A stretch of DNA of 64,000 bases, taken from Mesotoga sp. BH458_6_3_2_1. GTDB taxonomy: Bacteria; Thermotogota; Thermotogae; Petrotogales; Kosmotogaceae. The stretch is taken from assembly GCF_003664995.1 (NCBI RefSeq), contig NZ_JFHL01000002.1:1-64000 (forward strand). The letters are read 5' to 3'. Position 1 is the first letter of the stretch; every line of letters starts with the position of its first letter. Under the pieces are notes generated by a model. It was not told the DNA's origin, did no database searches, and worked only from the letters and a program-made list of their open reading frames with translations. Shown here piece by piece: positions 26,480-31,998 of the stretch. The position numbers and the translations under genes were made by a program.

Positions 26480-29400
26480 GTGAAAAAGACTTCATCAGTT
26501 TTAGTGGCTATTTTGCTTGTTCTTGTGCTTTTCTCAACCCAAGGTTGCTTTCTTTTTCGAAACGTAACTCTGTCAATAGAAAATTCTGAGCTGTCAATTG
26601 GAATCGGTGAGTCGGAGCAGATACAAGTTAATGTGAAACCCGATGATGCTGCCTTGAAGTTCTCTTCCAACAACGAATCGGTAGCGACAGTCTCAACTTC
26701 TGGTCTGGTGACAGGTGTCTCTGCCGGAGAGGCAGAGATTACAATTGAGGCGACCAAGGACAAATACAAGAGCGCTTTGAAGAAAGTCAGCGTTCAGGTT
26801 GTCGGGGTAGAATCGTTTTCCGTAACTTTTTCAGTTAGCGATTCTTCTGGAGCTCTCCAAGGAGCGAACGTTACTTTCAATGGCGAGATAAAGGCCACAG
26901 ACGTGGATGGTGAAGCCGTGTTCGCTGGTGTGTTGGCGGGGAACAAGGATTATACTGTGAGCAAGACAGGCTACAACGAAGCTACCGGAAGCATTAATGT
27001 GGATGAAGACAAGACAGTAGACATCACCCTCGAAAAGAAGACCTACATTATAACTGCAACAGCCGGTACCGGAGGAAGCATCGATCCTTCGGGAAGTGTT
27101 TCTGTTGAGCACGGATCGAGCAAGACATTCACTATGAATCCTTCAGAGGGCTACAGTGTGGAGGATGTTCTTGTAGACGGAGAATCCGTTGGGCCAAGAG
27201 CTACTTACACCTTTAACAATGTAACTTCAAATCATACGATAACTGTTAGTTTCACGACCTTGCCTCCCGATACGTACACAGCTACCTTCAACGTGAGTGA
27301 TTCATCTGGAGCCGTGCAAGGAGCGAACGTCACTTTCAATGGCGAGATGAAGTCCACAGACGTTGATGGCGAAGCCGTGTTCGCTGGTGTGTTGGCGGGG
27401 AACAAGGATTATACTGTGAGCAAGACAGGCTACAATAACTCAACTGGAACCGTTAACGTTGATAGCGACGAGAACGTCAATGTCACGCTAACTAAGAAGA
27501 TTTATACTATAACGGCGAGTGCGGGGACTGGTGGAAGCATCGATCCTTCGGGAAGTGTTTCTGTTGAGCACGGATCGAGCAAGACATTCACTATGAATCC
27601 TTCAGAGGGCTACAGTGTGGAGGATGTTCTTGTAGACGGAGAATCCGTTGGGCCAAGAGCTACTTACACCTTTAACAATGTAACTTCAAATCATACGATA
27701 ACTGTTAGTTTCACGACCTTGCCTCCCGATACATACACAGTTACCTTCAACGTGAGTGATTCATCTGGAGCCTTGCAAGGAGCGAACGTCACTTTCAATG
27801 GCGACACAAAGGCCACAGACGCCCAGGGGAAGGCTGTTTTCACGGGGGTGCTTTCGGGAAGTAGGTCTTACACGGTCAGCAAGGAAGGATACAACAACTC
27901 AACTGGAAATGTCAACGTCGATAGCGATGAGAGCGTGGACGTAACACTTACCAAGAAAACATACACCCTCACAGTGAATACTGTCGGTGAGGGGACAGTC
28001 ACCAAGATTCCCGACAAGGCGACATACACTCACGGAGAAGTCGTGCAGCTCACCGCCAATCCTGCGGATAACTGGAATTTCACGGGTTGGAGTGGAGATC
28101 TTGCCGGCTCGGCCAATCCGGAGAGCATCACAATGAATTCTGACAAAACGGTGACTGCGAACTTCTCTATAGTACAGTACACGATTACCGCTTCTGCAGG
28201 AACCGGAGGTACCATAAGCCCTTCGGGACAAGTGAAGGTCAATCATGGATCGAATCAGAGCTTCAGCATAAGTGCCAATACAGGCTATGATATACAAGAC
28301 GTAAAGGTCGACGGAGCTACTGAGGGAGCTATTGGTTCATATACATTTAGCAACGTGACAAGCGATCATACAATTGCTGCAACCTTTAAGATAAAGACTT
28401 ACACGGTAAGCGTCTCTTCAAACCCCGCGGAAGGGGGCAGTGTTAATGGAGGCGGAACATATAATCATGGTGCTCAAGTAAGTTGTCAGGCGACCGCAAA
28501 TGAAGGATACAGATTTGTCAACTGGACTGAAGGCGGAGTGGTCGTGAGTGATAACTCTACCTATACTTTCAACATCACCTCCAACAGAAATCTGGTTGCC
28601 AATTTCGTCAGGGTCTACTCCGTTACATTCAACGTTGTCGACTCTGAGGGAGTTTTGCAGGGGGCAGAGGTATCCTTTAACGGAGAAATTAAGGTTACGG
28701 ATGTTCAGGGGAAGGCCGTTTTCACCGGCGTTGTCACTGGCAGCAAAGCATACACTGTCAGCAAAGAAGGCTACAACAATGAAGCTGGAACAGTTGACGT
28801 AGATAGTGACGAGAGTGTCGATATCACTATGGTGAAGAAGACTTACACTCTTTCAGTGAGCACCGTTGGGCAGGGAACGGTAACAAAGAATCCCGACAAG
28901 GCAACCTACACACATGGTGAAGTTGTTCAACTGACTGCTAATCCGGACTCTGGCTGGAACTTCGATTCATGGAGCGGCGATCTTACAGGATCGACCAATC
29001 CGGTAAACATAATAATGAATGAGAATAAGACGGTTACAGCGAATTTCAGCGAGATAACATACACTGTAACGTTCAGCGTGAGCGATTCGGAAGGAGCTCT
29101 TCCGGGAGCAAGTGTAACTTTCAATAGTGAGACAAAGACGACAGATAGTCAGGGTAAAGCCATATTCACTGGTGTAACAGCTGGCGAAAAGCAGTATGCA
29201 GTGAGTAAAGATGGCTATGGCGACGTCTCGGGGAGTATCGTTGTTGATTCTAGTAAAACTGTAAATTTAACTCTGGTGAAAAAACCTATGATTGAAGTAG
29301 TGAATCGAATCATGCAGATAGATGACCCACTCCCGATAAGTGTTAGGGCTCAGAATCTTGGAGATGTCAATCTCATTGAAGTGGTTATTCAGTATGATCC

Positions 29401-29716
29401 TGAATACTTTGAAGATTTATGGTTCTACACCGTTAGGTTACCGGACTGGGAAGGAATACGGAAAGACCCTGGGAATGGGATTGTTCACGTCGTATTAGCA
29501 GCTGGCGCGGAAGCCGAGAAAACAATAGATGCTTTAACCGAAATTTTTCGAATTGAATTAACACCTAAGAAGACTGGTACTACCGAGCTTTCATATACGA
29601 GTTACACCGCAGAAGGTGGCGTTTTTTTTGAGACGAATATTATCACCACTGAAGAAACGAGACTCAGCGGTTCTGATCTGATTCTTCAAGAAGGGACTAT
29701 AACCATCACAAACTAA
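26480..29716 (+). CDS. large lipoprotein: Big2 domain, InlB-type and PEGA-like repeats, C-terminal cohesin-like module
   Basis: 1078 residues. The signal peptide ends at Cys23 (FSTQGC), an imperfect lipobox. Residues 30-110 resemble a bacterial Ig-like Big2 domain ([22 protein letters not shown]). Eleven modules of 70-77 residues follow, of three kinds: five carboxypeptidase-regulatory-like (GANVTFNGE...[12 protein letters not shown]), three '[10 protein letters not shown]' and three InlB-type ([12 protein letters not shown]...GWSGDL). From about 937 to the end is a domain with cohesin character: [15 protein letters not shown], a mid segment, [18 protein letters not shown], and a closing GTITI strand. 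The start is GTG. It heads a four-gene lipoprotein operon (gaps 19, 33 and 25 bases). Confidence 0.85.
26820..27737 (+). repeat. 459-bp in-frame tandem duplication
   Basis: Two consecutive 459-base units (153 codons) encode modules 1-2 and 3-4 of the large lipoprotein. About 195 bases (27075-27272 against 27534-27731) are identical including third codon positions, so the duplication is recent or kept uniform by gene conversion. Confidence 0.85.
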
Positions 29717-29735
29717 CTTTTGAGAGGCGATAATT

Positions 29736-30458
29736 GTGAAGCGAGCTATCAAGATCTGCCTGATTTCAGCATTTTTCATCTCAATTATCTCATTGACTGG
29801 GTGTATAAAGCCAACATTTCAGGTCGCAGTACAGATAACACCGGCTGGTGGGGGCAATGTTACAGGAGACGGAAGCTACAAGAAAGGCGAGACGGTTACA
29901 TTGAATGCAATTCACTCCGAGGGCTATCGTTTCTTGTATTGGAAAAGCGATGGTGTTTTCCTTACAGACCAGAACCCATACTCTTTCAATATCACTAGTA
30001 ACGTCAGCTTCGAAGCGGTTTTTGTCGCTGACGCAGGCGAAATATCGATTGCTGACGCCAATTTTGTAGTTGATGAAGAGGGCCACGTAAAAATAAACGG
30101 AGTTGGGCTTGGGGCAGTAAATCTGATTGAAGTTGTAATTGAGTATGACCCTAATGTCCTCAGCTGGGAAGGTAGTAGTTGCAGAATTGCCGGTTGGATA
30201 ACCATTGAAAAAAACCCCTCGCCCGGAATAGCCCACATAGCTATATCAGGCGCATCAACCGACATAAGCGAAGAGAAAGAGTTAGTTCGTATGTATCTTT
30301 TGCCGAAGAAAATAGGCTCTAGCGAAATCGAATTCACAACCTACGAGAGTGAGGGTGGCGTGTTTTTTGAGACAAACTGCATCACTGCGGGAGGCTTGAA
30401 GAAGACTTATCCTGAACTCGAGCTTACGAAAGGTGTAATAACAATAAATGAAAACTGA
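29736..30458 (+). CDS. lipoprotein with InlB-type repeat and cohesin-like module
   Basis: 240 residues. Signal peptide with lipobox SLTGC (Cys23). Residues 30-100 are one InlB-type repeat (GSYKKGETVTLNAIHSEGYRFLYWKSDG). Residues 102-240 are a second cohesin-like module clearly related to the C-terminus of the preceding protein: [44 protein letters not shown], then [14 protein letters not shown] and a final GVITI strand. The start is a GTG. It is in effect a minimal, one-repeat version of its upstream neighbour. Confidence 0.85.
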   Translation: MKRAIKICLISAFFISIISLTGCIKPTFQVAVQITPAGGGNVTGDGSYKKGETVTLNAIHSEGYRFLYWKSDGVFLTDQNPYSFNITSNVSFEAVFVADAGEISIADANFVVDEEGHVKINGVGLGAVNLIEVVIEYDPNVLSWEGSSCRIAGWITIEKNPSPGIAHIAISGASTDISEEKELVRMYLLPKKIGSSEIEFTTYESEGGVFFETNCITAGGLKKTYPELELTKGVITINEN

Positions 30459-30491
30459 TTCTGAGGAATTCATTAATGGGGGCGTGCGACC

Positions 30492-31538
30492 ATGAAAACA
30501 TTCAGAAGTTTTGTTTTTGTACTTCTCATGGCGATCTTACTTTCCGGTTGCTACATCAAGCTTTATGAAGAGAACGGTTTGGAAACAAGGTTAGATGGCA
30601 ACGACATGGTTTTCATACTAAAATCTGAAGCTGGTGCGATTGAGTTGCTAATTGACGAGACGATAGATTTCTCAGCACTACTTGTACCTGATGACTATCT
30701 GAAGATAGTCAAACACATTGATGAGAGTACTCTTATTGCGCTTGCAAGGGGGTCAACGATTAACCAAGGTGAAGAGATATTAAGGATTGAAGGACTTACA
30801 GAAAAGAGCCTGATTACTTCGATTAAGATATGGAATATCTGCGATACCTACCATGAATCAAACGGGACTGAACCAGAACTGCTTGGTGATTTCACAGGAG
30901 ATGGTCAGGTCGAGGGATTCGATTTCATACCATTTGCTCAGAGTTATGGAAATGCCGTTGGTTCTCCAGGTTATGACTCAATTTATGATATGAGTTCATT
31001 GGAAAACCCAGCGGGCAAAGCATTTTCAGGAATATGGGCGAAGATTTATTCTCAGGAAGGAGTTCCAGACGGAAAGATAGATGGTCCGGATTTCATCGTA
31101 TTCGCCAACAACTACGGATTCGCCAATCCATATCTTGGAACTTGGACATTCACCGGAGCAATTGACTATGAAAGTTCTTCATTCGGACAGGTCGATGCAA
31201 CTGGAGAAGGTACCGCAACTATTCAGTCTTCAAATTTCAACTTGGTTGGAAATGTGACGATGTATTTTGAGGCTGATTATGAAGATGAAAGTGGAAATCC
31301 ACTTCATTCAGAGATGACCACAACTATTAACAATGTCAGCTTTGATTTCGATAATCTTATTATGACAATTGACGCAACAGTTGAAGATCCCACAGGTTCA
31401 GGCAGTACATACGATGTTCGGTTGAGAGGTGCGCTAAGAACCGTCGGCGATGCGCTGTATGCCGAAGTGCCTTCAGGGGATATCTATCTTCTGAATCCCG
31501 AAAGAAAAGTCGGCACATGGTCTGGAAGCAAACAATGA
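30492..31538 (+). CDS. lipoprotein with dockerin-like module
   Basis: 348 residues; lipobox LLSGC with Cys20. Residues 25-125 are of unknown fold. Residues about 130-210 look like a type-I dockerin: the first calcium loop D133-F-T-G-D-G-Q-V-E-G-F-D144 followed by FIPFAQSYG, a linker, then a second loop with PDGKIDGPDF (Asp193, 197, 200) followed by IVFANNYG. The two copies are symmetric, as in true dockerins. Residues 215-348 are a beta-rich domain ending KVGTWSG, shared with the next gene. Its position right after two cohesin-like lipoproteins suggests a binding pair. Confidence 0.85.
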   Translation: MKTFRSFVFVLLMAILLSGCYIKLYEENGLETRLDGNDMVFILKSEAGAIELLIDETIDFSALLVPDDYLKIVKHIDESTLIALARGSTINQGEEILRIEGLTEKSLITSIKIWNICDTYHESNGTEPELLGDFTGDGQVEGFDFIPFAQSYGNAVGSPGYDSIYDMSSLENPAGKAFSGIWAKIYSQEGVPDGKIDGPDFIVFANNYGFANPYLGTWTFTGAIDYESSSFGQVDATGEGTATIQSSNFNLVGNVTMYFEADYEDESGNPLHSEMTTTINNVSFDFDNLIMTIDATVEDPTGSGSTYDVRLRGALRTVGDALYAEVPSGDIYLLNPERKVGTWSGSKQ

Positions 31539-31563
31539 GACTTTGCAAGAGAAGGTGGAGATT

Positions 31564-31998
31564 TTGAAGCGAATACTTCTGTTATTGGTTGTAGGAATTG
31601 TGTTTCTGCTGTCGGGGTGCATTTTCAAGTCCAATCCGGCAGGCTTTGTTGAGATCGCAGGTACTTGGTCACTCAACGGTAGAGTAGTGTACGGCGAGAC
31701 TGATCTGACAGGAAGTGGGACTCTATACATTACAAAACAGGATGGCAGCACTTTCAGCGGTACCGGATGGTACTTTGTCCTCAGTGCGCCTGTAGAAGGA
31801 ACAGTCTCCGAAAGACCCGAAAACTATCTTGTAATGCATGCTACGGTTACGTATGGCGGTCAGGAAAGGACAGTCTATTTCGTAGGACATGTCAAGGAAT
31901 TCGAGAGCGAAATCTCTGTCGAGGATGGCGAGATATTCCTTGATAATCTTACGAAAAAAGTTGGCACTTGGACCGGAGAGAGGACAGTTGCACCGTGA
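31564..31998 (+). CDS. small lipoprotein with KVGTW-ending beta domain
   Basis: 144 residues from the TTG at 31564, chosen because AGGTGGAG lies just upstream and the protein then begins MKRILLLLVVGIVFLLSGC, a perfect lipoprotein signal (Cys19). An in-frame TTG at 31543 has no ribosome binding site. The mature part (GTWSLNGRVVYGETDLTGSGTLYI...) is beta-rich, ends KVGTWTG and is paralogous to the last third of the preceding protein, without a dockerin. The function is unknown; a ligand-binding barrel is possible. It is the last gene of the operon; no terminator is visible. Confidence 0.8.
   Translation: MKRILLLLVVGIVFLLSGCIFKSNPAGFVEIAGTWSLNGRVVYGETDLTGSGTLYITKQDGSTFSGTGWYFVLSAPVEGTVSERPENYLVMHATVTYGGQERTVYFVGHVKEFESEISVEDGEIFLDNLTKKVGTWTGERTVAP

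Follow-up and report, generated by a model that had tools for sequence, protein, structure and literature searches.

Cohesin and dockerin modules in neighbouring Mesotoga lipoprotein genes: a probable non-cellulosomal assembly unit of the cell envelope that recurs in Thermotogota

The window, which is the whole stretch of 64,000 nucleotides analysed here, belongs to a 3.23-Mb Mesotoga genome in 36 contigs. Four of its genes, A, B, C, and D, follow one another in the same orientation on the + strand, separated by 19, 33, and 4 bases, and 735 bases beyond D comes the gene of a large protein that contains B-repeats and matches Peptidase_MA weakly. The genes and their modules are located as follows.

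26480..29716, + strand: gene A, 1078 aa, with an N-terminal signal, an imperfect lipobox (STQGC), and a C-terminal cohesin
Within 26480..29716, + strand: stalk modules of A, namely Big_2, six B-repeats, and five CarboxypepD_reg
29279..29710, + strand: cohesin domain of A, residues ~934-1077
29736..30458, + strand: gene B, 240-aa lipoprotein (LTGC) with one B-repeat and then a C-terminal cohesin
30042..30455, + strand: cohesin domain of B
30492..31538, + strand: gene C, 348-aa lipoprotein (LSGC) with an N-terminal domain (NTD), a dockerin, and a C-terminal beta-barrel
30579..30821, + strand: NTD of C, approximately residues 30-110
30870..31133, + strand: dockerin module of C, residues 127-214
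30888..30923, + strand: calcium loop 1 of the dockerin, D133-D144
30987..31091, + strand: calcium loop 2 of the dockerin, D166 and D193-D200, with an insert at 167-192
31134..31535, + strand: C-terminal domain (payload) of C, a predicted nine-strand up-and-down beta-barrel
31543..31998, + strand: gene D, 151-aa lipoprotein (LSGC) related to the barrel domain of C, without a dockerin

The order A-B-C-D is kept in G001, G004, G003, and G008, of which G003 is a genome of the same genus. The original prediction, made from the DNA letters, had placed cohesin motifs in A and B and dockerin motifs in C, and all of them were found where it had put them. It had also regarded all partners as membrane-anchored, which agrees with the canonical lipoboxes of B and C, but less well with A, where the lipobox is imperfect; the lipobox of D is canonical as well. 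Gene D, the fourth gene of the interval, contains neither a cohesin nor a dockerin, and it matches the profile of the C-terminal domain of C with an E-value of 1.2e-25.

Dockerin and cohesin are two interlocking halves, like plug and socket, and are most familiar from complexes that degrade cellulose. Single-sequence searches of Pfam and NCBIfam call neither module above cut-off in A, B, or C, and B alone reaches only E 0.051 against the cohesin family PF00963, which is below cut-off. Relatives were gathered from fetched loci, giving a cohesin family of 45 matches, and a profile (A2) was built from 28 of the domains. When this profile was compared with all PDB sequences, 23 of 23 matches were cohesins, the best being 3l8q (E 4.6e-8), and PF00963 is matched by 17 of the 28 family members at E<=0.1 (best 1.4e-8). 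The domain of A is a member of this Thermotogota family, with E-values of ~1e-21 and 8.7e-32 in two profile searches. The closing strand reads GTITIT in A and GVITIN in B, which also has the motif LLPKKIGSSE. The domain of B was predicted by AlphaFold2 from few related rows with a pLDDT above 90 across nearly the whole domain (~95), and it adopts the beta-sandwich jelly-roll fold of cohesins. In a Foldseek search with this model the top 50 matches are all cohesins, with a TM-score by target of up to 0.75; the best is the Clostridium perfringens cohesin 2vo8, and the Archaeoglobus fulgidus cohesin 2xdh is also listed. The proposal of C-terminal cohesin modules in A and B is thus confirmed by PDB matches that comprise only cohesins and by the predicted fold of B, which the analysis establishes as that of a cohesin.

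For C, no dockerin is called above cut-off in Pfam (PF00404) or NCBIfam, whose dockerin_GC model gives an E-value of 9e-5, below its own cut-off. Residues 127-214 of C alone match the dockerin 2y3n_B in the PDB with an E-value of 8e-4. A profile (A3) built from 25 relatives places cellulosomal dockerins first (2y3n_B, E 4.9e-6; 2b59_B, 3e-4; 6kg9, 8e-4), and EF-hand and unrelated proteins appear only among its weak matches. In addition, the half-repeats GDGQVEGFDFIPFAQSYG and PDGKIDGPDFIVFANNYG are identical at 10 of 18 residues, a level reached by 0 of 300 shuffles; some relatives show this internal duplication less clearly. The dockerin module expected in C is therefore borne out by a PDB list headed by dockerins and by the duplicated motif, and the identity of the modules can be considered established.

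The loops of this dockerin depart in part from what had been expected. Both of the calcium-loop/helix motifs described before are present, as D133-F-T-G-D137-G-Q-V-E-G-F-D144 and D193-G-K-I-D-G-P-D200, and helices are predicted after them at 142-151 and 198-207 in a separate fold of C of moderate confidence. Their supposed symmetry is not simple, because loop 2 carries an insert of about 26 residues. D133, D137, and D144 are invariant in the orthologues of gene C, while among 25 members of the dockerin family D133, D144, D166, and D200 are invariant and D193 is nearly so, which fits two calcium loops, the second one interrupted. Hence the first acidic residue of loop 2 is probably D166, followed by the insert of 26 residues before D193, for which the family pattern is typically YDIGPA...GIWxxIY...PDGxI. 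It is chiefly by this insert that the module differs from the solved dockerins that were matched, and since they lack it, calcium and cohesin binding could differ in C. Both modules are under purifying selection, as deduced from dN/dS values relative to G004 and G001 of about 0.13-0.16 for the cohesin of B, which is 89-90% identical in these two genomes, and of about 0.05 for the dockerin of C.

A total of 103 Thermotogota genomes were searched with the cohesin and dockerin profiles. A cohesin was found in 23 of them and a strong dockerin in 21, and all 21 dockerin genomes also have a cohesin; the Fisher p-value of this co-occurrence is 6e-20, which overstates the evidence because related genomes were treated as independent. 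More weight is carried by the adjacency of the two modules, which holds in ten genera: for 56 of 58 cohesin domains a dockerin is encoded within 6 kb, and both exceptions are at contig ends. As the survey profiles had been built partly from loci fetched through dockerin matches, the cohesin search was repeated with PF00963, which was not built from these loci, and 23 of 25 cohesins again have a neighbouring dockerin, the other two being at contig ends. Judged from sequence, the pairing of cohesin and dockerin is a conserved operon pattern in Thermotogota. The pair of the window, designated type II, was absent from G005, G006, G007, and G009 of the same genus in the profile survey, and so it is not essential. 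Two single-protein queries found no relatives on viral contigs.

The usual type II unit consists of an upstream gene ending in a cohesin, followed by a lipoprotein with an NTD, a dockerin, and a variable payload, and this lipoprotein often has a second, internal cohesin directly before the dockerin. The window is a variant with two upstream cohesin genes, A and B, and a beta-barrel payload, for which no significant match was found among PDB folds (best E 8e-3). In the cohesin tree, upstream-gene and internal cohesins are clustered, with 3 changes compared to 9.7 in shuffles. The cohesins of A and B are sisters (SH-aLRT 97) of the upstream-gene kind, and the idea that the cohesin of B is a split-off internal cohesin was accordingly rejected. 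Besides the conservation of the operon, the loci show that payloads are swapped. An SBP_bac_5 payload occurs twice in the Kosmotoga genome G011, with OppB- and OppC-like genes downstream; a caspase-like C14 peptidase is the payload at L065; a beta-helix is found on another contig (C29) of the window's own genome and in G004; and an LRR/fn3 payload is found in G046. A further arrangement occurs in family f5, where a dockerin-bearing beta-propeller protein is encoded upstream of an fn3-cohesin protein. In the cluster proteins that were scanned, neither a tandem-cohesin scaffoldin nor a glycoside hydrolase domain above cut-off was detected, only a marginal Pectinesterase match on a beta-helix; the combination that defines a cellulosome, a tandem-cohesin scaffoldin together with dockerin-bearing glycoside hydrolases, is thus not present in them.

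The same genome also has a second operon type, type I. Its first gene, on contig C17, encodes a lipoprotein of 446 aa that ends in a cohesin-like domain, and 8 bases further on starts the gene of a papain-like protease, whose signal peptide is of the ordinary kind and whose C-terminus bears a dockerin (PF00404, 26.2 bits). A comparable pair is found in G062, G056, G046, G040, G012, G026, and G005. In the PDB, 11 of the 12 matches of the type I cohesins are cohesins, at modest E-values, and 6 of 9 members match PF00963. In this pair, the protease lacks a lipid anchor of its own and would acquire one via the cohesin lipoprotein; as an account of the whole system, such anchoring through the cohesin is the simplest in functional terms.

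The recurrence of this pairing across the phylum makes it probable that its role is to assemble protein complexes on the cell envelope. We consider it probable that A, B, and C form a non-cellulosomal, lipid-anchored assembly unit of the envelope that is likely to depend on calcium; its binding, calcium dependence, membrane side, and barrel function are what we infer here. In such a unit, A would be lipid-anchored, and its roughly twelve small beta-modules would form a long stalk with the cohesin at the tip; B, also lipid-anchored, would display its cohesin on a short stalk. The lipid-anchored C would bear the dockerin beside its N-terminal module, followed by the barrel payload. The dockerin would fold around two calcium ions, and the cohesin of B, of A, or of both would capture it, so that the payload of C and the stalk proteins would be clustered at the membrane. 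The design across the phylum would then be one cohesin-ended protein and one dockerin lipoprotein with an interchangeable payload, such as a peptide-binding protein, peptidase, beta-helix, or LRR protein.

The modules could be genuine and yet be paired differently, so that A and B hold another dockerin, for instance that of the C17 papain-like protease or of the two dockerin proteins on C29, and the cohesin that captures C is encoded outside the operon, giving a mixed network. The genome does contain at least six cohesins and four dockerins, and the specificity of cohesins for dockerins cannot be read from sequence. However, the partner module lies in the adjacent gene or in the same chain in nearly every genome, in both operon types, and the cohesins of type I group apart, with no more than a weak hhalign match to the type II family (6.7%), which speaks against cross-binding. 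A mixed network is thus unlikely, if the least so of the alternatives.

Less probable still is a lack of mutual binding, in which the cohesin-like domains would be beta-sandwiches that bind glycans or peptides, and the dockerin-like module a calcium-stabilised linker. Cohesins and some carbohydrate-binding modules belong to one fold class, and the insert in loop 2 would also be compatible with this explanation. Moreover, an AlphaFold2 co-fold of the cohesin of B with C, in which the stop codons between them were read as residues, gave a confident cohesin, a dockerin with a pLDDT of ~55, a pTM of 0.43, and no confident interface; with the dockerin so poorly modelled, this outcome does not decide for or against binding. 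Against this, the co-occurrence and adjacency of both modules are near-perfect, cohesins are the closest matches in both sequence and fold, and known non-cellulosomal pairs bind strongly (PMC9705933).

A comparably small chance is given to adhesion between cells or outside the cell, with cohesin lipoproteins on one surface binding dockerin lipoproteins on another: stalks of B-repeat, Ig, and fn3 modules are typical of adhesins, and an adhesin role in syntrophic consortia has been proposed for cohesin/dockerin proteins of syntrophic sulfate reducers (PMC10553843). On the other hand, a single operon of a single cell supplies all partners, and a periplasmic face suits payloads like the oligopeptide-binding protein encoded beside OppB/C genes. 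The original prediction had suggested that binding could crosslink the membranes or hold the toga; within the preferred reading of an envelope assembly unit, the OppB/C association in G011 points to a possible recruitment of uptake proteins and enzymes no less than to attachment of the sheath. That the stalk cohesins and the dockerin lipoprotein sit in opposite membranes, so that a calcium-dependent bond would tie the outer toga to the inner membrane as a new type of envelope tether, is a long shot.

Non-cellulosomal cohesin-dockerin pairs are already known in other organisms. The pair ORF2375/ORF2376 of A. fulgidus shows strong, specific binding (PMC9705933) and resembles that of the window in being non-cellulosomal, with its modules on two consecutively numbered ORFs; unlike the latter, it is archaeal, and its description there mentions no stalked lipoproteins with exchanged payloads. 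The C. perfringens glycosidase cohesins (2vo8, 2jh2, and 2w1n) are likewise single cohesins outside a cellulosome, but they are joined to glycoside hydrolases, whereas the cohesins of the window are on lipoprotein stalks. In ANME archaea, dockerins are found on OppA/NikA-type substrate-binding proteins (PMC9012536), which resemble the SBP_bac_5 dockerin proteins of G011; in contrast to the Thermotogota loci, where none such were seen, some ANME proteins have up to five cohesins. Type I and II cohesins and dockerins of cellulosomes (e.g. 2y3n and 3l8q) are homologous to the modules of the window, but the Thermotogota cluster proteins scanned include neither a tandem-cohesin scaffoldin nor a cellulase. 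A scaffoldin-based cohesin/dockerin system with peptidases has been described in Cloacimonadota (PMC8542988). A literature search found nothing that names Mesotoga together with a dockerin and nothing relevant in titles and abstracts on the wider Thermotogota, although the non-cellulosomal survey of Peer et al. 2009 may list a Thermotogota protein.

If the proposed assembly is true, many Thermotogota would attach binding proteins and peptidases modularly to lipid-anchored stalks without cellulosomes, which may help explain how their outer sheath and periplasmic proteins are held. The two-gene pairs, some of them derived from thermophiles, lend themselves to direct tests and could find use as new binding pairs that are orthogonal or heat-stable.

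The NTD of C is itself a conserved module, found before a dockerin or a cohesin-dockerin across Thermotogota. It had no match in a PDB search, and AlphaFold2 gave no resolved structure for it. Its weak similarity to cohesins, with an hhalign value of 60.7% (E 8.2e-5) against the cohesin profile, is at most suggestive of a shortened cohesin.

The genome that carries the window encodes two further sets of such genes (L numbers denote loci from this or the compared genomes).

C17:39916-42737 (L054:4917-7738), - strand: cohesin-like lipoprotein and dockerin protease pair
C29 (L053:4635-15367): paralogous cohesin-dockerin cluster

In the pair on contig C17, the lipoprotein has a C-terminal cohesin-like domain and the papain-like protease a C-terminal dockerin, and this two-gene unit is found in at least seven further Thermotogota genomes. 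On contig C29, a stalk lipoprotein with a terminal cohesin is followed by two lipoproteins combining the conserved N-terminal module (NTD), cohesin and dockerin, one of which has beta-helix repeats.

31543-31998: gene D, related to the barrel domain of C, without dockerin

From this relationship, the barrel payload of the dockerin lipoprotein C occurs free and would also occur docked. Other payloads and dockerin-like modules were found elsewhere.

L079:4510-7290, L080:2787-5531, L081:2013-4562, L082:611-3352: 850-927 aa proteins with a weak C-terminal dockerin match
L068:718-2301 (Thermotogae MAG): M6-type peptidase whose C-terminus bears a dockerin-like module
L060:2-14150 (genome G011): two SBP_bac_5 oligopeptide-binding proteins and permease genes
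L065:7052-11803 (genome G039): cohesin-dockerin protein whose payload is a C14 peptidase domain of caspase-like type

The 850-927 aa proteins, some of them beta-propeller proteins, are from other Thermotogota families, and no adjoining cohesin was found at the four loci. In both SBP_bac_5 proteins, NTD-cohesin-dockerin precedes the oligopeptide-binding part, and OppB/OppC-like permease genes come after them.
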